This document shows, in pieces, positions 3,988 to 25,164 of a DNA stretch of 30,921 nt. The notes below the pieces were generated by a model. The model saw only the letters and a program-made list of their open reading frames with translations, did no database searches and was not told the origin of the DNA. The position numbers and the translations under genes were made by a program. This DNA is from a virus: the IMG/VR virus record IMGVR_UViG_3300046714_000009, positions 1-30,921 of that record; one strand, given 5' to 3'. The stretch's first letter is position 1, and each line of letters opens with the position of its first letter.

Positions 3988-5106
3988 TTACCTCAGATGC
4001 AAGTTGCGCATGATGTAAGGCACGATCTCCTTCACACTTGGTCCATATGCATCAATGAGTGGACCTGCTGCACCAGCAACACCACCTGCTACAGCACCAG
4101 GCACACCCCTAAGTCCTGGTATCGGTCCCTTACCAGCAGCACCCGCAGCAGCACCAGTTGCAGCACCACCAACACCACGACTGAATGGCGTCTGCTCAAT
4201 TGGATAACCTTGCACTGGCTTACCAGGAGCAGCCTTCGGTGTCACATTGCCAACACGCACACGACCACCCGGTTCACCTTGCGGTGCGTTATCAAAGCCA
4301 CCCAACCCAGGAGTTGGCGCAGGCAATGCAGGCACTTCAGGAACAGGTGCAATCTGTGGACGCACAGGCACATCAGGTGCAGGCAATGCTAACTGCGGAG
4401 CAGGTGCAGGCAAACGTGGAACTTCAGGAGGTGCAGGCAACTGTGGCACTTGTGGAGGACCACCAATTGCACGTTGCATTGCAGTCTCCATCGGATTGAT
4501 GGATGGTTCAGGTAGAGCAACTGCGTTAGCACGTGTAGGTGGTGGCATCTCAGATGGACCACCCGGCCTCACAAGTGCACCCTCATCAGGTGGTAACGTT
4601 GGCAACGGAACCTTAGGCAACTCCATATCAGTGCCAGGACCAGGACCAGGCATCGTCTTACTACCAATGATTGGTCTGTTATCACTAAGCCCAGGCGGAT
4701 GTTGTGGCACATCCCAACGTGCATCAGGTTCAGTCAAGTCCCAACGTGTAGGTTGAAGTGCACGTGTGATCGCACGAGCAGGATTGCTGTCCTCAACACC
4801 AGCATTGCGCAACTGCGTGCCACCTGGACTTGGATCACTGATCTGGAACGGACCGAACTGCCCAGGATTGAGTGCATTCGCGTTGATAGCAGCCTTGATG
4901 TTAGCAGCAGTAGGCTGAACACCTTTCGACTTTAGATAGTTGAGCACCAACGAAGTCGGTGACAACTGATCACTGGTATCCTCAGTGCTAACCATATTCG
5001 GATCGTAACCACGCGCAGCAGCAGGAGGTGGTGCACTACTAGGCGGTGCACTGCTACCCTGTGGCACAGTTCGCACACTAACATTCATGCGTGGAGCAGT
5101 AGCCAT
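3988..5106 (-). CDS. Proline/alanine-rich low-complexity virion-type protein
   Basis: A 372-residue protein with little globular sequence. Residues about 20-30 are Pro/Ser/Ala-rich (SSAPPSSAPPPAAA). Residues about 150-300 form a long stretch of short PALP/LPAP-type repeats (VPQLPAPPEVPRLPAPAPQLALPAP and similar). The end is a Gly/Ala-rich helical patch (GAATGAAAGAAGKGPIPGLRG) followed by 'LIDAYGPSVKEIVPYIMRNLHLR'. Residues 45-95 (TSLVLNYLKSKGVQPTAANIKAAINANALNPG) look like a small helical domain. No enzymatic motif is visible. By operon position next to the terminase genes it is probably a structural or assembly protein. The start overlaps the previous stop by one base (TGATG). Function unknown. 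Confidence 0.75.
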   Translation of the reverse strand: MATAPRMNVSVRTVPQGSSAPPSSAPPPAAARGYDPNMVSTEDTSDQLSPTSLVLNYLKSKGVQPTAANIKAAINANALNPGQFGPFQISDPSPGGTQLRNAGVEDSNPARAITRALQPTRWDLTEPDARWDVPQHPPGLSDNRPIIGSKTMPGPGPGTDMELPKVPLPTLPPDEGALVRPGGPSEMPPPTRANAVALPEPSINPMETAMQRAIGGPPQVPQLPAPPEVPRLPAPAPQLALPAPDVPVRPQIAPVPEVPALPAPTPGLGGFDNAPQGEPGGRVRVGNVTPKAAPGKPVQGYPIEQTPFSRGVGGAATGAAAGAAGKGPIPGLRGVPGAVAGGVAGAAGPLIDAYGPSVKEIVPYIMRNLHLR

Positions 5107-5420
5107 CAGTATGCACTCCCCTTGCCTAGAATTGCATGAGCAATACCAGCAGCTTGAGCAATATGGTGCGCATCATGCGTACCACCTGGGCTACCACCAC
5201 CAGCACGCGGATCAGGTGGCAAACCACGCTGTTTATCGAGTGCTAAGTCACGCGGACTGCCTTCAGCAATACCTGCCTTACGATCCGCAGCTTCATCAGC
5301 AGCTTCAGCTTGAGCAACGTTGCGCTTGGGCGGATTTGCACGTGGATTGCTACGCGGGATGGGTGACTTCACACTTTGACCAACTTCTTGATCAAAGTTA
5401 GCACGTGGACCACGCGCCAT
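5106..5420 (-). CDS. Small basic hypothetical protein, late operon
   Basis: A 104-residue protein beginning MARGPRANFDQEVGQ. The ATG at 5420 lies one base after the preceding stop with GGAG about 11 bases upstream; an in-frame GTG at 5435 would extend it by five residues into the previous gene. The first half is Arg/Pro/Asn-rich (PIPRSNPRANPPKR), the middle Ala/Glu-rich and helical (AQAEAADEAADRKAG). The tail has Gly-rich 'GGGSPGGTHDAHHIAQAAGIAHAILGKG'. It appears largely disordered. No known family is recognised. It sits between two other low-complexity genes of the packaging operon, and the TGATG junction with its downstream neighbour suggests coupled translation. Confidence 0.6.
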   Translation of the reverse strand: MARGPRANFDQEVGQSVKSPIPRSNPRANPPKRNVAQAEAADEAADRKAGIAEGSPRDLALDKQRGLPPDPRAGGGSPGGTHDAHHIAQAAGIAHAILGKGSAY

Positions 5421-5421
5421 C

Positions 5422-5871
5422 TCAATAAGCTCCACTCACACCGACTTGTTGCTTACCACCACCGCCATTGCCACTAACATCGGCAGGATACGACGCTGGG
5501 AACACGCTACGATTGAGTAACGCTTGGAACGCAACGAGATCAGCAGGCGTGGTTGCACGATTTACTAAATTTATCGTCTCGATCGGTGCTGCACCACCAA
5601 ATCCACCAACTACACCCTGCACTTGCTTCTTAGTCTTAGCAGCAGTGCCACCAGCAGCAGCACCAAGCAACATATACAGCAACTGCGTCACACCAGCAGT
5701 GGCACCACCATTGCGCAACATCTTAGCGATGCGATCATCACCCTGCTGCACGCCATTGAACGCTACATAACCAGATGTAGCCTCAGCGTTAGCAGCACCA
5801 GCACCCATCGTGTTAGTATAACCAGTGAACGGCACGCGACCGGGCACTGCACCGAGACCATAAGTAGCCAT
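5422..5871 (-). CDS. Glycine/alanine-rich protein, first gene of the leftward operon
   Basis: A 149-residue protein starting MATYGLGAVPGRVPF. I chose the ATG at 5871 because GGAG lies eight bases upstream; the open frame continues to 5943 without a better ribosome site. A helical hydrophobic stretch (GVTQLLYMLLGAAAGGTAA, about residues 60-80) could be a membrane-active segment. The end is Gly-rich (VSGNGGGGKQQVGVSGAY). 'NLVNRATTPADLVAFQALLNRSVFPA' looks like a short helical domain. The family is not recognised. It is the promoter-proximal member of the operon running to the portal, so its transcription should start within 5872-6587, although no clear minus-strand promoter is visible there. 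Confidence 0.65.
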   Translation of the reverse strand: MATYGLGAVPGRVPFTGYTNTMGAGAANAEATSGYVAFNGVQQGDDRIAKMLRNGGATAGVTQLLYMLLGAAAGGTAAKTKKQVQGVVGGFGGAAPIETINLVNRATTPADLVAFQALLNRSVFPASYPADVSGNGGGGKQQVGVSGAY

Positions 5872-12106: not shown

Positions 12107-12148
12107 AGGCGCCCGTTGAGGCTGTGCACATTGCCACTGCGGGCGCCT
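12107..12148 (+). promoter_or_regulatory. GC-rich stem-loop in the leader of the PEP-CTERM gene
   Basis: AGGCGCCCG (12107-12115) pairs with CGGGCGCCT (12140-12148), a perfect 9-bp stem with a 24-base loop. A mini-hairpin GCGCC-TTC-GGCGC overlaps its right arm. There is no T tract, so it is either a terminator of the preceding operon or a leader structure. Confidence 0.5.
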
Positions 12149-12182
12149 TCGGCGCGCTTCCACTCCATGGAGCTTCATCAAC

Positions 12183-12860
12183 ATGAGTATGCGAACACTA
12201 CTGCTCGCTGGCATTGCTGCTGTTGGCATTGCTGGCAGTGCTGATGCTGCGAACATCATCACGTTCTCGCAGACATCACAGACTAACACTGTGACTGCCA
12301 CTGATAACATTGGTAACACGCAGACCACACTGGCAATTGCTAGTGCTGCTGTGAGTATTGGTCAATTCATTGGTGGTGCAACTGTGTCAGGCTTCATGAG
12401 CCTGAATGCTACGAGTGTCAATCCTGCTACGACATTCCTGACACAGATCATCCAACTCTACTCTGGTAACTTCTGCATCACCAGTGCTGCTGCATGTGGT
12501 GGCACCAACTTGCTCAGTGGCACGTTCACTGATGCAGCGTTCGGTGCAGCAGGTGGTCCAGGTCTGACTGTGAACGTCAACAATCCACCTGACACGCTCA
12601 ACTTGACTAGCAGTGTGGTGCCTGCGGCTAGCTTGATACCGCCATCTGCGTTCTCGATAGGGTTCACCAATCTATCGAACCCACTCGCTATTGTAGGCAC
12701 TACGATCGCACCGTTCACTGCGTCATTCGCTGGCACTGTGAGTTCGAGTGCTGTGCCTGCTGCTGAGCCTGCAACCATTGCAGTGCTTGGTGTAGGTGTG
12801 CTCGGTCTCGCTGCCGTGTCACGTCGTCGCAGCAAGCGTAGCGACTTGACATATGCCTGA
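12183..12860 (+). CDS. Secreted protein with PEP-CTERM sorting signal
   Basis: A 225-residue protein. Residues 1-22 are a Sec signal peptide (MSMRTLLLAGIAAVGIAGSADA, then cleavage at ADA-A). The mature part is rich in Thr, Ser, Ala, Asn and Gly with many short strands and no charged catalytic centre; a Cys pair lies near residues 98-105 (FCITSAAACGG). The C-terminus has all three parts of a PEP-CTERM signal: 'EPATI' (E195-P196), a hydrophobic helix 'AVLGVGVLGLAAVS' (about 200-213) and 'RRR' (214-216), then a short tail. In bacteria that have exosortase (EpsH-type) this signal directs processing and export of proteins linked to exopolysaccharide and biofilm. Finding it in a phage operon is unusual. 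Codon use (GCT, GTG, GGT) resembles neighbouring phage genes. Start context is GGAG about ten bases upstream. Confidence 0.82.
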   Translation: MSMRTLLLAGIAAVGIAGSADAANIITFSQTSQTNTVTATDNIGNTQTTLAIASAAVSIGQFIGGATVSGFMSLNATSVNPATTFLTQIIQLYSGNFCITSAAACGGTNLLSGTFTDAAFGAAGGPGLTVNVNNPPDTLNLTSSVVPAASLIPPSAFSIGFTNLSNPLAIVGTTIAPFTASFAGTVSSSAVPAAEPATIAVLGVGVLGLAAVSRRRSKRSDLTYA

Positions 12861-12874
12861 GTATGGTGTATACT
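12846..12874 (+). promoter_or_regulatory. Promoter pointing into convergent minus-strand genes
   Basis: TTGACA at 12846-12851, 17-base spacer, TATACT at 12869-12874, overlapping the end of the PEP-CTERM gene. It shares TTGACATATGCC with the promoter at 8432. Downstream on the plus strand there is no gene until 14326; the transcript would be antisense to the four minus-strand genes at 12902-14195. Confidence 0.7.
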
Positions 12875-12901: not shown

Positions 12902-13093
12902 CTACATCCGCTTACCACTCAATACGTTCTTGGCTATACGTTGTGGCAGGTCAGTTGCACCACGTGCATGATCTGCTGCAACGAAGTCCTTAGCGACTTT
13001 CTGCGTCGGTCCCTTCCCCTTCCCACCCTTCGGCTTGGCTCCGTGTGCGATAGCTTGCATCATGCGCTGTTGCGCTCTGCTGACGGATGGCAC
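12902..13093 (-). CDS. Small basic phage protein (DUF3008-like)
   Basis: A 63-residue basic protein starting at a GTG (13093) with GAGGAG eight bases upstream. 'MPSVSRAQQRMMQAIAHGAKPKGGKGKG...VAKDFVAADHARGATDLPQRI' follows the pattern of short proteins annotated as DUF3008 or similar ('PSVSKAQQRxMgaxAHG.....vPxxVAkdF'). They are frequent near structural or lysis genes of phages; their role is unknown. It is the last gene of the minus-strand island and overlaps the upstream gene by about 104 bases in another frame. Confidence 0.72.
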   Translation of the reverse strand: MPSVSRAQQRMMQAIAHGAKPKGGKGKGPTQKVAKDFVAADHARGATDLPQRIAKNVLSGKRM

Positions 13094-13192: not shown

Positions 13193-13435
13193 TCACTCCG
13201 GTGGTGGTGGTGTCTTAGCTGCAAGTAGCAACGCGAGTATTGCAGTGAGCAGTTCACTGAATATCTCGCGTGCTATGCTACCTAGTCCTGTGCATGCACC
13301 GATCTCTGCTTGTCTCGACATGACGAGCCATATGCAACCGGCAGCACTGAACAGCGTCGTTGCAAGCTCTGCAACGATGACACCAGCAAGTAAGATGAAG
13401 CTCCAGCGTAGAACGTCAAACTGTGGTCGTGCCAT
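13193..13435 (-). CDS. Two-helix membrane protein, holin candidate
   Basis: An 80-residue protein with two membrane helices. The first is about residues 10-38 (WSFILLAGVIVAELATTLFSAAGCIWLV) and the second about 58-73 (EIFSELLTAILALLLAA). Between them is a short loop (SRQAEIGACTGLGSIAR), and a Pro tail (KTPPPPE) follows. Size and topology fit a class II holin, which would time lysis by opening the inner membrane, but no endolysin is present in this window to confirm it. The start codon lies in the loop of a perfect 9-bp hairpin (13423-13450), so translation may be structurally controlled. The stop overlaps the next gene's alternative GTG. Confidence 0.65.
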   Translation of the reverse strand: MARPQFDVLRWSFILLAGVIVAELATTLFSAAGCIWLVMSRQAEIGACTGLGSIAREIFSELLTAILALLLAAKTPPPPE

Positions 13436-13457: not shown

Positions 13458-14195
13458 TCACTTGGGTTGCGGTGTCGGTGCGATAGGATTGCCAACTGAG
13501 AGCGACGGGTCAATGGTTGTCCAACGATAGCCTACGCCTACGATCCATACGAGGCACATGACTTCACCCTGTATGGTCGGTGGCAATGGTGGCCATACTG
13601 CACCGGGTGGCAAGTCAACAGGTGGCAACGTGTTGTCAATGCCGGGTTGTGATCCAGGCAGTGTGTTGTCGATGTTAGGAGGGCGTCCACCCGGTAGTGT
13701 ATTGTCGATACCGGGTTGATCACCGGGCAACGTGTTGTCTACTTCTGGTAAGGTTGGTCCACCACCTACATGTCCAGGTCGTCCTGGCATTGGTCCACCA
13801 CCAACATGTGGCGGACGAATGTAGATTGGTAAGCTAGGATACACTGGCTGCGGTGGTGGCCATGTGATCACTGGTGGTGGTGGGAAGCAACCGGGTCCAA
13901 CAGGTATGTCATAACCAGGATCAACTGGATACGTTGGCCGATGTGGTGGACGCGGTGGCCACACTCCCGGCACCGATGGCAATCCATTGTTGATCACTGG
14001 TGGCAGTGGAATGCCAAACGATGGATCAACTGGTCTGTCACGTCCCGGCAGTCCATGTCCAGGCCGTTCACCACCCGGTGCAATTGGGTGCGATGGATGT
14101 CCCTCTTCAATCCCATAGTCAGGATCAACGGGACCACTTGGTCCACGTCCTGTTACATACGCAGTGCCGCGTATGATGACTGGTGTTCCTGGCAT
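13458..14195 (-). CDS. Proline/glycine-rich repeat protein of podovirus-like phages
   Basis: A 245-residue protein, nearly half Pro and Gly. Motif 'PVDPxYG/PVDPSFG/PVDPGYD' occurs three times (about 22, 55, 90), 'PHVGGGP/GHVGGGP' twice (about 130 and 142) and 'DNTLPG' four times (153, 164, 176, 187). The C-terminus is different: 'GEVMCLVWIVGVGYRWTTIDPSLSVGNP', a compact strand-rich module around 210-235. I recall similar proteins ('PVDPDYG...', ending in 'W.PGVGYRW.VIDPS') in phages of alphaproteobacteria, without a known function. The ATG has GAGGGG about nine bases upstream. It is the first gene of the minus-strand island and lies next to the holin candidate. Confidence 0.78.
   Translation of the reverse strand: MPGTPVIIRGTAYVTGRGPSGPVDPDYGIEEGHPSHPIAPGGERPGHGLPGRDRPVDPSFGIPLPPVINNGLPSVPGVWPPRPPHRPTYPVDPGYDIPVGPGCFPPPPVITWPPPQPVYPSLPIYIRPPHVGGGPMPGRPGHVGGGPTLPEVDNTLPGDQPGIDNTLPGGRPPNIDNTLPGSQPGIDNTLPPVDLPPGAVWPPLPPTIQGEVMCLVWIVGVGYRWTTIDPSLSVGNPIAPTPQPK
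13620..13748 (-). repeat. Coding tandem repeats (DNTLPG units)
   Basis: Four tandem units of about 11-12 codons encode residues 150-192 of the Pro-rich protein (T/I-D-N-T-L-P-G...P). The DNA copies have drifted in third positions, so the repeat is old or kept for its protein sequence. Confidence 0.65.
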
Positions 14196-16317: not shown

Positions 16318-17404
16318 CGCTCCATACAGTGCAAGCTTTCGAATAGCATCAGGTGAAGATCTTGCGCTCGAATGCTATGATCACACCAAGCTGAGTGCAG
16401 TCAACACATGTCCAACATACGGTGTGCTCCGTTACCAAATGAACCTCAGGATGCCTGGAGATGGGCGCTCGATGGCGCTGGAGGCTGGCAGTGCACTACA
16501 TGAATGCTTTGCCTTCGTTCGCTTGGTCAGCTTGATTGAGCAACTCACTCATGAAGGTAAGCCAAAGGCGTTCGTTGACGCAGTGTGGAGTCATCATGGC
16601 ATCCGACTATTTGGTAAGGAACGACTAGAAGCCATCAGCCTTGCTGTCGAACAAGCTGATGACGTGATTGATTTATGCAAGCGTGGTTCTATCACTGTGC
16701 TAGACTCGGGTGGGTTCCATGATGATCCAAGAGACAGGCGACGCACGCTGTCTAACCTAGAGGAATGTATCTACGCATACATCAATCGTTGGCGCTTCGA
16801 TCATGTTGTGTGGATGCGTGATCGTGATGACCCAACATCCGATGTAGGTATAGAGATACCATTCGATGTAGTCGTGAATATCCCAACCAAGATGCAGTTT
16901 CGTCTCACTGGTAGGATCGACGGCATTCATTATGCCTCTGATGGTAAGCTGGCTATCCATGATAACAAAAGTGCGTCGCGCTTAGGCGAAGCATGGAGTA
17001 TGGCACAGCAAGTCAGTCATCAGTTCACTGGCTACTGTGTGGCAGCATCCGTGTTCACCAAGGACAGTGTGCGCAATGTAGAAGTGCACGGGCTGGCTGT
17101 TCCTCTACCGAAGACCTACGACTTTGGAGGAGTCACACGAGAGGTCATGCGTAGAGAAGACCATCACTTCACGCGCTGGTTGGCATGGTTGGTGCACACC
17201 GTAGAGATGACTAGGAAGTATGCAAACGATCCATACAATGCTCCCAAGTTCACACACAGTTGCTCACGCTACTTCCGTCCATGTATCTTCGTACCGTTCT
17301 GCGTTGCCGATGATGAGGAACAGAAGCTCATTGTCAGCGAGCTAGTGTTCGATGAATGGACGCCCTTAGATAAGCCACTGCTCGACGGCATTGGTAACGA
17401 ATGA
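16310..17404 (+). CDS. PD-(D/E)XK exonuclease with putative 4Fe-4S site
   Basis: A 364-residue protein from the ATG at 16310, which overlaps the previous stop. Features match the RecB/AddB/Cas4-like nuclease family: an N-terminal 'KLSAVNTCPTYGVLRYQM' with C34, 'EAGSALHECFAFVR', then 'LTGRIDGIH' (D204) and 'AIHDNKSAS' (D218-x-K220) as the metal-binding core, and 'QQVSHQFTGYCVAA' as the QxxxY-type helix. Near the end C318, C325 and C331 (x6, x5 spacing) with C34 are well placed for an iron-sulfur cluster. Such phage enzymes are 5' exonucleases that make single strands for recombination. It is followed, after two HNH genes, by a Sak4-like ATPase and SSB-like protein, a coherent recombination set. 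Confidence 0.88.
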   Translation: MSDAPYSASFRIASGEDLALECYDHTKLSAVNTCPTYGVLRYQMNLRMPGDGRSMALEAGSALHECFAFVRLVSLIEQLTHEGKPKAFVDAVWSHHGIRLFGKERLEAISLAVEQADDVIDLCKRGSITVLDSGGFHDDPRDRRRTLSNLEECIYAYINRWRFDHVVWMRDRDDPTSDVGIEIPFDVVVNIPTKMQFRLTGRIDGIHYASDGKLAIHDNKSASRLGEAWSMAQQVSHQFTGYCVAASVFTKDSVRNVEVHGLAVPLPKTYDFGGVTREVMRREDHHFTRWLAWLVHTVEMTRKYANDPYNAPKFTHSCSRYFRPCIFVPFCVADDEEQKLIVSELVFDEWTPLDKPLLDGIGNE

Positions 17405-17411
17405 GGATGCG

Positions 17412-17861
17412 ATGCCAATATATCTCACAGCAGAAGAGAAGCTGTCGCGTGCACGAGCGAACAACATCCTTGTTGATGAGCAAGACATGTGGTTGCTGGA
17501 AGAATACACATGGCACATTGCGCACAAAGGATATGCTAGGACGAACGTAGCAGGCGGAACAGCAAGACTACACAATGCAATAATGGGTTGCCCGATTTGG
17601 GAAGGTGAGGAGATAGATCACATCAACCGGAACCCAGCAGACAACAGAAGGAGTAACCTGCGGTGGACTTCTCCAACAGGGAACGCACTGAACCGTTCAT
17701 TCCCACTGAGTAACTCAGGTGCTCGCAACGTTTACCTAATGGGCAGCAAGTATCAAGTGCAGATCAGACGTAGCGGTGTGTTGCATCTGTTGGGTGGGTT
17801 CGATACACTCGATGAAGCTGTTGACACACGAGATGCATGGCTCGCTACTAATAGTGGGTGA
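17412..17861 (+). CDS. HNH homing endonuclease with AP2-like domain
   Basis: A 149-residue protein from the ATG at 17412 (GAGG five bases upstream; the frame is open to 17391). The HNH core is 'LHNAIMGCPIWEGEEIDHINRNPADNRRSNLRWTSPTGNALNR', with the H of RLHN, the DH pair and the NxxxN/R elements. A C-terminal AP2-like DNA-binding part follows (GARNVYLMGSKYQVQIRRSGVLHLLGGFDTLDEAVDTRDAW). The N-terminus 'LVDEQDMWLLEEYTWHI' is shared with the next gene, so the two are diverged tandem relatives. Free-standing enzymes like this cut near their own insertion point. No neighbour is interrupted. Confidence 0.88.
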   Translation: MPIYLTAEEKLSRARANNILVDEQDMWLLEEYTWHIAHKGYARTNVAGGTARLHNAIMGCPIWEGEEIDHINRNPADNRRSNLRWTSPTGNALNRSFPLSNSGARNVYLMGSKYQVQIRRSGVLHLLGGFDTLDEAVDTRDAWLATNSG

Positions 17862-17867
17862 GGAGTG

Positions 17868-18455
17868 ATGAGCACACAACATGTGGTAGTGAAGCATCGT
17901 CATCGAGATGCTGAACAACGCTTGCAACGTGCACTCAAGCGTGGCATCATTGTTGATCCTGAGGATGAGTGGCTGTTGCGTGCATACACGTGGACCATCC
18001 ACAACGGGTATGGGTGCACGTGGTTATCGACTGGCTACAGAGTGCAGTGCAGTGTGTATCTACACCACTGCATCGTGGGACAGGCTGCATGGCAATGCGA
18101 TGAAGTCTGTCACGTGAACAAGAACAGGCTAGACAACAGGAGGTCCAACCTAGTCATCTGCAAGCGTAGTATGTCTAAGCTCAGCAACAGCAACGTGGTG
18201 AATGCCAAGCACATCATGTTCGACATGCGTGCCAAGCGTTGGCATGTCAAGATCATGCGCAATGGTGTATACTACAGGTGCATGAACCTGCCGACTGAGA
18301 TGGCTGCACAACTTGTTAGAGAAGCGTGGGTCGCGTTGTATGCACAACATGGAGATGATACATGGATGAGATTGAGTGGCGAATGGCGTATAACGAAGCG
18401 TGCAAGTCTGCCGAACGTATCACGGCACCAGAGACCAAGACCACCAACATGCTGA
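17868..18455 (+). CDS. Degenerate HNH/AP2-type endonuclease paralogue
   Basis: A 195-residue protein beside the 17412 HNH gene and related to it: 'IVDPEDEWLLRAYTWTIHNGYG', then 'VYLHHCIVG...CDEVCHVNKNRLDNRRSNLVICKRSMSKLSNSN', then an AP2-like 'KHIMFDMRAKRWHVKIMRNGVYYRCMNLPTEMAAQLVREAW'. The usual 'EIDHINRN' is replaced by 'EVCHVNKN', so the Asp next to the catalytic His is Cys; the His and the downstream Asn are kept. It may be weakly active, inactive, or retain only DNA binding. The last 30 residues (WRITKRASLPNVSRHQRPRPPTC) are not family-like and overlap the small gene at 18362. Confidence 0.75.
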   Translation: MSTQHVVVKHRHRDAEQRLQRALKRGIIVDPEDEWLLRAYTWTIHNGYGCTWLSTGYRVQCSVYLHHCIVGQAAWQCDEVCHVNKNRLDNRRSNLVICKRSMSKLSNSNVVNAKHIMFDMRAKRWHVKIMRNGVYYRCMNLPTEMAAQLVREAWVALYAQHGDDTWMRLSGEWRITKRASLPNVSRHQRPRPPTC

Positions 18456-21670: not shown

Positions 21671-21698
21671 GCCCGCGCCTGTAGATACAGGCGTGGGC
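21671..21698 (+). promoter_or_regulatory. Stem-loop between helicase and HNH gene
   Basis: GCCCGCGCCTG and CAGGCGTGGGC form an 11-bp stem (one G-T) with loop TAGATA. No T tract. It sits just upstream of the HNH start at 21717 and may limit its translation or transcription. Confidence 0.55.
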
Positions 21699-21716
21699 AC
21701 GAATGGGGAACAGCAC

Positions 21717-22190
21717 GTGCGAATAGAACTCACACAAGGCTACTCCGCTGAGATAGACTTCTCTGATTGGTGGAAGGTGCAAGGCTATACATGGCGTGCA
21801 CACATTGTGCCTAAGACAGTCTACGCAGTTACTAGCATAAGGGATCGTGGAAACGTCTACATGCATAGGCTCATCAAGCCATCACCAGAAGGTTTGCAGA
21901 TAGACCATGAGGATGGAGACGGGCTGAATAACAGATACGTCAATCTACGACACGCAACAAGTAAGCAGAACAGTGCCAACGCATACAGAGCACACAATGC
22001 AACAGGCTATATTGGTGTTAGTGCTGCACCATCAGGACGCTGGACGGCACGTGTAAAGAAAGATGGGACACTTCGTGGTCTCGGCACATTCGATACAGCA
22101 GAAGAAGCTGCCAGAGTTCGTGATGCTTGGGTGCTGGCAGAGTATGGAGAGTTTGCCATACTGAACTTCCCAGTGGAGGACAAGCCATGA
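21717..22190 (+). CDS. HNH homing endonuclease with AP2-like domain
   Basis: A 157-residue protein, started at the GTG at 21717 (GGGGAA six bases upstream), which gives 'MRIELTQGYSAEIDFSDW', the normal opening for this family. The frame is open to 21693, but that start is inside the stem-loop. HNH core: 'VYMHRLIKPSPEGLQIDHEDGDGLNNRYVNLRHATSKQNSAN'. AP2 part: 'GYIGVSAAPSGRWTARVKKDGTLRGLGTFDTAEEAARVRDAWVLAEYGEFAILNFP'. Closely similar in plan to the gene at 24688; the two flank the polymerase. Stop overlaps the polymerase start (ATGA). Confidence 0.9.
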   Translation: MRIELTQGYSAEIDFSDWWKVQGYTWRAHIVPKTVYAVTSIRDRGNVYMHRLIKPSPEGLQIDHEDGDGLNNRYVNLRHATSKQNSANAYRAHNATGYIGVSAAPSGRWTARVKKDGTLRGLGTFDTAEEAARVRDAWVLAEYGEFAILNFPVEDKP

Positions 22191-24691
22191 TGCAGTCTCC
22201 TATCTTGTCGATTGCAGAGATGAACCGTGAACTTGAACATCTTGTGCATGCATCAGGCTTGGACTTTGATTGTGGTTGTGGTGGGCGATTGACCAGCACC
22301 ATCGCAATCGTGGCAGAGGCACCTGGGGAACGCGAGGTTCAACAGAAGACTCCACTAATCGGAGGATCAGGTCGATACTTATGGGACGTGCTTCGTAAAG
22401 ACAGGATCACGAGAAACGATGTTTATGTTACAAATGTGGTGAAGCGCAAGCTGGTGTCAGCAGCCGAAGGGATCACACTCGATGAGAAACAAACCAAGCT
22501 CACGCTCAGCAAGGATGAGCGAGCGCAGTGGCGTCATATACTATGGGAGGAGTTGTCACGTCTACCTGATCTGCGGTTTGTTGTGGCGCTTGGCTCATAT
22601 GCTCTCCAAGCACTCGTAGGCTACGACGCAATCACCAAAGTGCGTGGCTCTGTCTACGATGTAGACATTGCCGGTAGGAGAGTAAGGGTGCTAGCCACGT
22701 TCAATCCTGCACATGTCATGCGTGAGGCACGCATGGAGATCGTGTTCCGCATGGACTTGAACAAGTTGCAGAAGTTGCTGAAGGGCACGTTCCATGTTCC
22801 GCGTATCGAAGCACTCATCAATCCAACCTATCGTGAGGCACTCGATTTCATACGCTATGCCTCTACACTCAGCACTCCGCTTGCCTATGACATTGAAACT
22901 ATGGCTGGTGAGACAGCATGTGTTGGTTTCGCGCCTACGAATGAGATGGGGATTTGTATTAACTTCCGTTCGCAAGGACAGAACCATTACACTCTTGACC
23001 AGGAGCGCGACATCCGACTGGCGCTACAGTCACTCCTTTCTAGCACACGAACGCAGCTTGTGGCACAGAATGGACACTACGATGCAACGTGGTTATGGTT
23101 CAAGGATCGTATTCGCGTTCACGCGCATTGGTTCGACACTATGCTCGCACACCATTTTCTATACCCAGGACTGCCACACGATCTTGGTTTTATCACTGCC
23201 CAGTATACCGACCATCCCTACTACAAGGACGAAGGCAAGTTGTGGCGAGAGGAAGGAGACATCGACTCCTTCTGGGAATACAACGTCAAGGACTGCTGCA
23301 TAACGCGCATGTCCGCTGAGCGTATGGAGCAAGAGCTTATCGACAACAAGCTACATGCTACGTTCCACAACCATGTGATGCGACTGCAACCCGAACTCGT
23401 GCAGATGACAATCAATGGAGTGCAAGCAGATGAGCGACTCAAGTCACGGTTTGCCGATGACCTCGGAGCAAGCCTCGATACTGCAAGAGAGGTTTGCCAA
23501 GTCAAGGCTCGTGTGGCAACTGGCAGGTCAGATTACGAGTTTAATCCCAGAAGCCCTGCTCAACTTAATCAACTCTTCTTTGCAGACTTGCGCTTGGTCG
23601 GACGAGGAACGTCAACAGATAAGGAGAATAGGGATCGTATTAGAAGGCATCCACGAACTGCACCGGCAGCTAGAGACCTTATCGCAGCCATTGATCGATA
23701 CTTACAAGAGGCCAAGTTCGTCAGCACCTACGTTGGTGCAGAACCAGACAGTGACGGTAGATGGCGTTCAGCCTACAAGCAAACAGGAGTAGCGTCTGCA
23801 CCGGGTCGGTTGTCGAGTAGCCAGACCGCTTGGGGAACTGGGCTGAACATGCAAACAATTCCAACTGCGGCGAAGGGTATGTTCGTAGCCCAACCAGGGT
23901 GGATGTTCAGCTACTTCGATCTTGCCCAAGCAGAGTCTCGGATCGTTGCCTACCTTGCCGACATTTTGAAGTGGCAAGAACAGTTCGAACGTGCCAGATT
24001 ACATCCCGGCACGTATGACTGTCATCGTGCCCTAGCAGCCGAGATGTATAGGATAGGCTATGAGCAAGTTCCGAGAGCAGACCACACTCCTGAGGGAGAG
24101 CACACCATTCGGTTTACAGCCAAGCGTTGTAGACACGGGCTGTCCTACCGGATGGCACCGGATAAACTGGCAGCAGTTGCAGGGTTGTCAAGCGTTGAAG
24201 CTGAACAAGCATATCGACTTTTCCATGTGGCAAGCCCAGAGGTCCAACTGTGGTGGGATGACCTTGTTGCGCTCGTTAGACGGGACCGGGCAATCACTAC
24301 TTGTCTTGGAAGAAGATGGCTCCTGCTAGAGCGGTGGGACGATGCTGCGCTTGACAGCATAGTTGCCTTCGAACCACAGAGCATCTGTGGCGATCACTGC
24401 TCAAGTGTGATATACAAGTCACACAACGACCCCGACTGGCCACCGTCCGCTCGCATCCTGATGAATGTCCACGACAGCAACGTGGCGATCCACAAGCCAG
24501 AGGATGGTGAGCAAGTTCGGGCTATCATGAAGAAGTATGCGGAGCAACCGCTATACATCAACTCCGTGCGCAACCGACTGCGTGGCGCCGTCGCGCTACA
24601 ATCGTGTATAATACCAGCAGAGTTCAAAGCAAGCGTGCCTGATACCGATGGTGTCCACCGGTTGAGCAGCCTAGAGGATATACAAGCATGA
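22187..24691 (+). CDS. UDG-like domain fused to family-A DNA polymerase
   Basis: An 834-residue replicative polymerase; the ATG at 22187 overlaps the HNH stop and has GGAGG seven bases upstream. Residues 1-200 resemble family-4 uracil-DNA glycosylases: 'EAPGE' at 44-48, 'PLIGGSGRYLWDVL', 'DVYVTNVVKRK' and 'FNPAHVMR' at 172-179. The catalytic His-Pro is Asn173-Pro174, and of the Fe-S cysteines only C29/C31 are seen, so repair activity is doubtful. The 3'-5' exonuclease follows: D235-I-E237, N295-x3-D299, Y365-x3-D369. Polymerase motifs are A, 'YFDLAQAESR' (D578); B, 'RFTAKRCRHGLSYR' (R642, K646, Y654); and C, 'VHDS' (H762-D763). His650 stands where E. coli Pol I has F762, and Arg655 replaces the usual Gly. 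UDG-like N-terminal domains are known in some phage polymerases, SPO1 among them. Confidence 0.92.
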   Translation: MMQSPILSIAEMNRELEHLVHASGLDFDCGCGGRLTSTIAIVAEAPGEREVQQKTPLIGGSGRYLWDVLRKDRITRNDVYVTNVVKRKLVSAAEGITLDEKQTKLTLSKDERAQWRHILWEELSRLPDLRFVVALGSYALQALVGYDAITKVRGSVYDVDIAGRRVRVLATFNPAHVMREARMEIVFRMDLNKLQKLLKGTFHVPRIEALINPTYREALDFIRYASTLSTPLAYDIETMAGETACVGFAPTNEMGICINFRSQGQNHYTLDQERDIRLALQSLLSSTRTQLVAQNGHYDATWLWFKDRIRVHAHWFDTMLAHHFLYPGLPHDLGFITAQYTDHPYYKDEGKLWREEGDIDSFWEYNVKDCCITRMSAERMEQELIDNKLHATFHNHVMRLQPELVQMTINGVQADERLKSRFADDLGASLDTAREVCQVKARVATGRSDYEFNPRSPAQLNQLFFADLRLVGRGTSTDKENRDRIRRHPRTAPAARDLIAAIDRYLQEAKFVSTYVGAEPDSDGRWRSAYKQTGVASAPGRLSSSQTAWGTGLNMQTIPTAAKGMFVAQPGWMFSYFDLAQAESRIVAYLADILKWQEQFERARLHPGTYDCHRALAAEMYRIGYEQVPRADHTPEGEHTIRFTAKRCRHGLSYRMAPDKLAAVAGLSSVEAEQAYRLFHVASPEVQLWWDDLVALVRRDRAITTCLGRRWLLLERWDDAALDSIVAFEPQSICGDHCSSVIYKSHNDPDWPPSARILMNVHDSNVAIHKPEDGEQVRAIMKKYAEQPLYINSVRNRLRGAVALQSCIIPAEFKASVPDTDGVHRLSSLEDIQA

Positions 24692-25164
24692 GGAACATAC
24701 CGCTTACACAAGGCAAGGTCGCCATCGTTGATGATGAAGACTACAATCTCGTTGTGCAACACACGTGGCAGGCACAACGTGACGGTCGCACTTGGTATGC
24801 ACTGAGTGGACGCAGAGGTAAACCTGTGCTCATCATGCACAGGCTGATCTACTATCCTCCCGATGGCATGCTTGTCGATCACATTGATCGCAACGGCTTG
24901 AACAATGTGCGCAGCAATCTGCGATGGGTGACACGTGCACAGAATGCACTGAACACATCACTGTCTGTGCCGAGTTCAGGCTATCGTGGCGTCACGCTAC
25001 ACAAGAACGGCAGGTGGCAGGTGATGATACAGAACAATGGCAAGGCCCGATACATCGGGCTGTTCGATACACCAGAGGAAGGAGCACGGGCCTATGATGC
25101 AGCAGCTATGCAACATCATGGAGACTTTGCACTGCTCAACTTCCCACTAGATGAACTTATCTAG
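24688..25164 (+). CDS. HNH homing endonuclease with AP2-like domain
   Basis: A 158-residue protein coupled to the polymerase by an ATGA overlap. 'IPLTQGKVAIVDDEDYNLVVQHTWQAQRDGRTWYALSG' is the common N-terminal module. 'IMHRLIYYPPDGMLVDHIDRNGLNNVRSNLRWVTRAQNALNT' contains the HNH residues, with intact DH pair and Asn. 'GYRGVTLHKNGRWQVMIQNNGKARYIGLFDTPEEGARAYDAAAMQHHGDFALLNFP' is a full AP2 domain. It ends the plus-strand block and overlaps the convergent DUF3987 gene by 18 bases. Likely active, targeting the polymerase region in related phages. Confidence 0.92.
   Translation: MRNIPLTQGKVAIVDDEDYNLVVQHTWQAQRDGRTWYALSGRRGKPVLIMHRLIYYPPDGMLVDHIDRNGLNNVRSNLRWVTRAQNALNTSLSVPSSGYRGVTLHKNGRWQVMIQNNGKARYIGLFDTPEEGARAYDAAAMQHHGDFALLNFPLDELI

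Follow-up and report, generated by a model that had tools for sequence, protein, structure and literature searches.

Introduction

The PEP-CTERM/exosortase (EpsH) system is a widespread and poorly understood surface route in EPS-forming Gram-negative bacteria, and its biology has been treated in several studies (PMC1569441, PMC9850573, PMC12188702). The proteins sorted by it carry a signal peptide, a (P)EP motif, a hydrophobic helix and a C-terminal basic cluster, and Haft et al. (2006) reported that this cargo is biased towards few basic residues and much Thr, Ser and Asn (PMC1569441). PepA keeps EPS bound to the cells (PMC9850573), and the loss of the exosortase in Nostoc alters the exoproteome and biofilm formation (PMC12188702). 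A sigma-54 promoter is typical of proteobacterial PEP-CTERM genes only and is no general requirement. Among phages, the superinfection-exclusion morons Ltp of phage TP-J34 (PMC3952083) and SieA of P22 (PMC10883804) are accessory genes; their products are held at the host envelope by lipid or membrane anchors and counter superinfection there. In virus contigs of hot springs, TIGR03118-type genes with a putative exosortase-interaction domain (n = 13) were listed as gene transfers (PMC11003980).

Here we describe a phage gene, F0, found in an IMG/VR virus record of 30,921 bases (the window, meaning the whole stretch analysed), which also contains genes for a portal, terminase, exonuclease, Sak4-like protein, helicase and DNA polymerase. 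F0 resembles the bacterial PEP-CTERM cargo in its signal peptide, (P)EP, hydrophobic helix and C-terminal basic cluster, and in a Lys/Arg-poor, Thr/Ser/Asn-rich body without Pfam relatives; it differs in being phage-encoded and mobile, in having neither an adjoining exosortase nor an enriched sigma-54 promoter, and in reading AEP in the window. Its similarity to PepA is weak, though by analogy the EPS binding of PepA (PMC9850573) is a plausible model for F0. F0 can be likened to Ltp and SieA as an accessory phage gene; theirs are lipid or membrane anchors, and F0 bears an exosortase tag. The hot-spring proteins share with F0 the putative exosortase-interaction domain in a virus gene, yet they belong to another protein family and appear only in a list, without family, mobility or cassette analysis. 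A literature search, of incomplete coverage, returned no paper describing such a phage PEP-CTERM family.

Structure of F0 in the Window

F0 is an ORF with an ATG start on the plus strand (12183–12860), the same boundaries as drawn in the sequence-only reading, and the ORF, domain profiles and viral homologues identify its 225-aa product as a phage PEP-CTERM cargo protein. The Sec signal peptide, hydrophobic helix and basic cluster described in that reading were all present. The N-terminus, MSMRTLLLAGIAAVGIAGSADA followed by Ala, is compatible with a Sec-type signal peptide of residues 1–22 (12183–12248, +), with a putative cleavage site between ADA and A judged from the sequence. The exported body, 170 aa between signal peptide and tail (12249–12758, +), contains the Cys pair C97/C104 and no Lys or Arg, and its conserved core in the alignments is DAAFG...GGPGL.VNVNNPPD. 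Profiles and alignment place the PEP-CTERM-type sorting tail at 12759–12839 (+), where the C-terminus reads AEPATIAVLGVGVLGLAAVSRRRSKR..., with EP at residues 195–196 (nt 12765–12770), then the hydrophobic helix and then RRRSKR (R214–R219). Residues 197–223 are helical in the predicted structure, and Ala replaces the canonical first Pro of PEP (AEP) in this copy. Against PF07589 the window protein scored 18.6 bits (E = 0.0019; cut-off 20.7) and against TIGR02595 14.1 bits (cut-off 16), with a weak similarity to the PepA model NF033554 over residues 76–217 reaching 23.3 bits, far under the equivalog cut-off of 80, which sets F0 apart from the PepA family.

Thr, Ser and Asn make up 36% of the body (15.5%, 11.9% and 8.3%, respectively), confirming the richness in these residues that had been noted earlier; the accompanying description as low-complexity did not hold, as only 2/157 12-mers were of low entropy and AlphaFold2 returned a confident all-beta barrel (pLDDT 94.7, pTM 0.88). 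Zero Lys/Arg in the body was found in 51 of 58 members, and none of the 493 other proteins encoded at F0 loci contained a K/R-free stretch of 168 aa. The Cys pair is kept or lost jointly, with 49 members having two Cys and nine having none. By its sequence, the body composition follows the bias reported for PEP-CTERM cargo (PMC1569441). The nearest solved shapes to the predicted barrel were allene-oxide-cyclase-like and dirigent barrels, with a top Z of 9.1 for PloI4 (3.5 Å, 124 residues). Foldseek with the F0 structure and a search of BFVD folds that used the full-length model gave no match at E ≤ 0.001, and a sequence search of the PDB found nothing. The model suggests a barrel of the allene-oxide-cyclase/dirigent/calycin type, which is too little to name a fold family.

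The Viral F0 Family

Because the window copy falls just below the PEP-CTERM cut-offs, homologues were needed to judge the PEP-CTERM claim. Successive scans of IMG/VR viral contigs found 28, 104 and finally at least 115 F0-encoding stretches in several phage types, some of them near-identical copies, and 63 distinct members were analysed. All 63 carry EP and, following the helix, two or more basic residues, 50 have the full P-E-P, and 58 have a clearly hydrophobic C-terminal helix. PF07589 scored above its cut-off in 20/25 carrier records, where it reached up to 34 bits, and in 0/23 related phage records without F0, so that the profile check proposed in the sequence-only reading failed narrowly for the window copy and succeeded for most carriers. 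TIGR02595 matched 10 of 18 members, and the PepA flocculation model matched 17 of 18 (best E = 2.7e-12). E195 and P196 are among just 14 invariant columns of the 58-row alignment, with 12 invariant columns lying within the body, and a simple rule recognised a signal-peptide-like N-terminus in 49/56 full-length members. The PEP-CTERM-type tail is, on these alignments and profiles, a family trait far beyond chance, and the claim of a phage PEP-CTERM cargo gene was thereby borne out.

The dN/dS of the family is well below 1, with body values of, e.g., 0.01–0.09 / 0.17–0.6, a clear sequence signature of purifying selection.

Distribution of F0

No F0 relative was found in 84,980 bacterial/archaeal species genomes scanned with two short motifs, which distant kin could escape, and the terminase of the window group likewise had no relative in the species genomes by two short patterns, which distant relatives could also escape. 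Among 50,697 isolate phage records there was no match at E ≤ 1, the four matches of the window query having E = 8; 72,556 plasmids gave no match at E ≤ 1, and a defence-system library gave no match. As far as seen within the searches made, F0 sequences appear solely in viruses. F0 is flanked by terminase, portal, polymerase and helicase genes, and its GC content equals that of its phage in the window (0.53 vs. 0.53) and is close to it in most carriers. The earlier statement that F0 is not an obvious recent host fragment agrees with its many viral loci, the purifying selection and this GC content. The carriers may be called "soil-type", judging by the identifiers of their IMG metagenomes and by where PEP-CTERM bacteria are known to live.

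None of the 42 F0 carrier phage records contains an exosortase above cut-off, so a host exosortase would have to serve. The sole exosortase-like match (G035/L169, 15.5 bits) is sub-threshold and runs on the strand opposite a 513-aa tail-fibre-like ORF; it was set aside as chance.

Genomic Position and Mobility of F0

In the phage of the window, F0 lies between p11780 and p12905. Two genomes colinear with it (L003 and L004) have F0 between p10228 and p12905, a third colinear relative (L134) has it after p12905, and a fourth (G018) between the DNA polymerase and the next gene, giving four F0 sites in all among the colinear relatives of the window phage. The small conserved protein p12905 (12902–13093, −), which flanks F0 in L003, L004 and L134, marks this shifting insertion site in the locus comparison. 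F0 is missing from the nearly complete relatives G005, G012, G016 and G021; many contigs are fragments, and some F0 absences may be gaps. Related phages, in which the sequence-only reading proposed to look for the same gene at this site, do carry it, though not at one fixed site. In a second phage type, F0 occupies about six positions, including upstream of the small terminase gene, between it and the other terminase gene, in the terminase–portal gap, after the portal and near the capsid genes, where the portal label is supported and the terminase and capsid labels are inferred. The F0 family tree is not sorted by phage type, and in the window group F0 lies among early or replication genes. 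F0 is thus present in some colinear genomes, absent from others and differently placed among them, as is characteristic of a moron, and the genome comparison shows it to be a mobile accessory gene.

A phage integrase is encoded at 5014–5454 of G021 (the record of L108), a relative of the window phage without F0. Integrases were seen in 4/42 F0 carriers, with most carriers showing none.

Genes Neighbouring F0

Several protein families recur beside F0 in the neighbouring loci, whose genes were called with a simple ORF caller. Within two genes of F0 were found 11 of the 16 occurrences of a Pro-rich repeat protein (4.9 expected), 9 of the 11 occurrences of a beta-helix protein (3.0 expected) and all seven occurrences of second, unrelated PEP-CTERM proteins (1.2 expected). 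The window encodes a 245-aa Pro-rich repeat protein (13458–14195, −) with PDNTLPG and PSHPIAPGG repeats and a small conserved C-terminal domain; it has no Pfam or PHROG match, and its family is mobile and clusters with F0 in other phages. Beside it lies a gene for an 80-aa two-helix membrane protein (13193–13435, −) that is 45% identical to the product of L115:10654–10998, the gene directly after F0 there; it is common to two phage types and may be a holin or a partner in the cassette.

Some carriers have two PEP-CTERM proteins in tandem, and three unrelated bodies with the same tail type stand side by side in phages. The second PEP-CTERM families are also found in the absence of F0 and have complete PEP tails there too. 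Since these unrelated bodies have only the signal peptide and tail in common, the tag itself appears to be selected. We tentatively propose, as a possibility that we hold to be somewhat doubtful, a mobile surface-remodelling cassette addressed by the host exosortase tag, in which F0, two further PEP-CTERM families and the Pro-rich and beta-helix partners would pass as one module between unrelated phages and together change the EPS of infected cells.

Other phage PEP-CTERM families, whose bodies are not related to that of F0, were seen at L132:10669–11364 (13 viral loci), L161:10447–11133 (7 viral loci) and L026:2114–2968. A protein of 580–660 aa with a Pro-rich N-terminus is encoded near F0 at L003:1761–3749, L004:4218–6179, L005:6605–8344 and L009:8143–9879; it has no Pfam match and is possibly a polysaccharide-active enzyme. 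A single-helix membrane protein of about 65 aa adjoins F0 at L136:3190–3390, L146:6581–6778, L149:4240–4437 and L126:9137–9355. The window also harbors four paralogous HNH-type (homing-endonuclease-like) genes in 31 kb, at 17391–17861, 17865–18455, 21693–22190 and 24688–25164.

Expression Signals of F0

A GGAG ribosome-binding site precedes F0 (12169–12172, +), and similar purine-rich sites occur upstream of many homologues. The sequence-only reading had also given F0 a structured leader and a promoter of its own. The former was retained in part, as the leader contains a GC-rich stem-loop (12107–12148, +) that is moderately unusual (z = −2.6) and has no T-run; it may terminate the gene upstream or form a structure in the mRNA. 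The candidate promoter was dropped, its 9/12 match being at chance level, with three sites in the region vs. 1.6 ± 1.2 expected. A sigma-54 (−24/−12) site was not enriched in 60 regions upstream of F0 (best-site mean 4.72 vs. 4.86 in shuffles), suggesting that the phages express F0 under their own control.

A strong promoter-like match, TTGACA-17-TATACT (11/12), overlaps the end of F0 (12846–12874, +), with no obvious long same-strand ORF downstream; a small RNA is possible there.

Discussion

The reading that we prefer, with a probability of roughly 0.65, is that F0 is the cargo of a mobile phage moron cassette, that the host exosortase delivers it to the cell surface or the EPS layer, and that it most likely alters the envelope or EPS there to the advantage of the phage. 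During infection, F0 would be exported through the host Sec pathway with removal of the signal peptide, and would fold in the periplasm as a Lys/Arg-free, disulphide-containing beta-barrel, with its C-terminal helix anchoring it in the inner membrane. After recognising and cutting the (P)EP tail, the host exosortase would pass the barrel on to the outer surface or into the exopolysaccharide layer. By analogy with the bacterial cargo, this processing and surface location are quite probable. Once there, F0 would most likely change the infected cell's envelope or EPS; it might, for instance, mask receptors that competing phages use, or retain EPS around the cell. That the phage benefits from such a change is a guess, and one we would not favor at present; receptor hiding, EPS retention and an exosortase decoy are all possible gains. 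The superinfection block, biofilm release and redirected display put forward in the sequence-only reading are likewise conjectural effects.

Acting as a decoy, F0 would flood the host exosortase, so that display of the host PEP-CTERM proteins falls, the EPS loosens, the cell leaves the floc or biofilm and the phage spreads. The same F0 anatomy would fit, as would the tandem pairs of PEP-CTERM proteins seen in some carriers, and the loss of host PEP-CTERM genes leads to deflocculation (PMC9850573). A pure decoy has no need of a conserved folded body, however, and the body of F0 shows a dN/dS well below 1 and 12 invariant columns, making this reading rather unlikely. The helix might instead merely tether a periplasmic barrel to the inner membrane, where it could block the DNA entry of other phages or assist lysis with no role for an exosortase. 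Many phage exclusion proteins are simply membrane-bound, small membrane proteins are encoded nearby, and the tail of the window copy is without the first Pro and stays below the cut-off; yet a plain anchor gives no reason for an EP in 63/63 members, for the above-cut-off PEP-CTERM matches in most homologues or for one tail type on three unrelated bodies, and we consider it improbable.

A structural role, in which F0 would be a virion protein using membrane sorting during assembly, might be read from its place among the head and packaging genes of one phage type and from its linkage to Pro-rich and beta-helix proteins that are possible tail parts. It is very improbable given that F0 is missing from close relatives with complete-looking morphogenesis genes, varies in position and lies among early or replication genes in the window group. 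PEP-CTERM proteins are otherwise bacterial (PMC1569441), which could point to a bacterial gene caught by chance or to bacterial DNA misassembled into phage contigs; against at least 115 viral loci in several phage types with flanking phage core genes, no bacterial relative in the short-motif scan, purifying selection and a GC content near that of the phage in most carriers, such an origin is extremely improbable.

If the exosortase-sorted cargo reading is true, a phage family retaining an exosortase address tag would mean that phages influence the EPS layer from within the cell. The F0 proteins would supply exosortase assays with small heterologous substrates of natural origin, and the PEP-CTERM tag would mark phages of exosortase-bearing hosts, providing a host clue for uncultured soil viruses.
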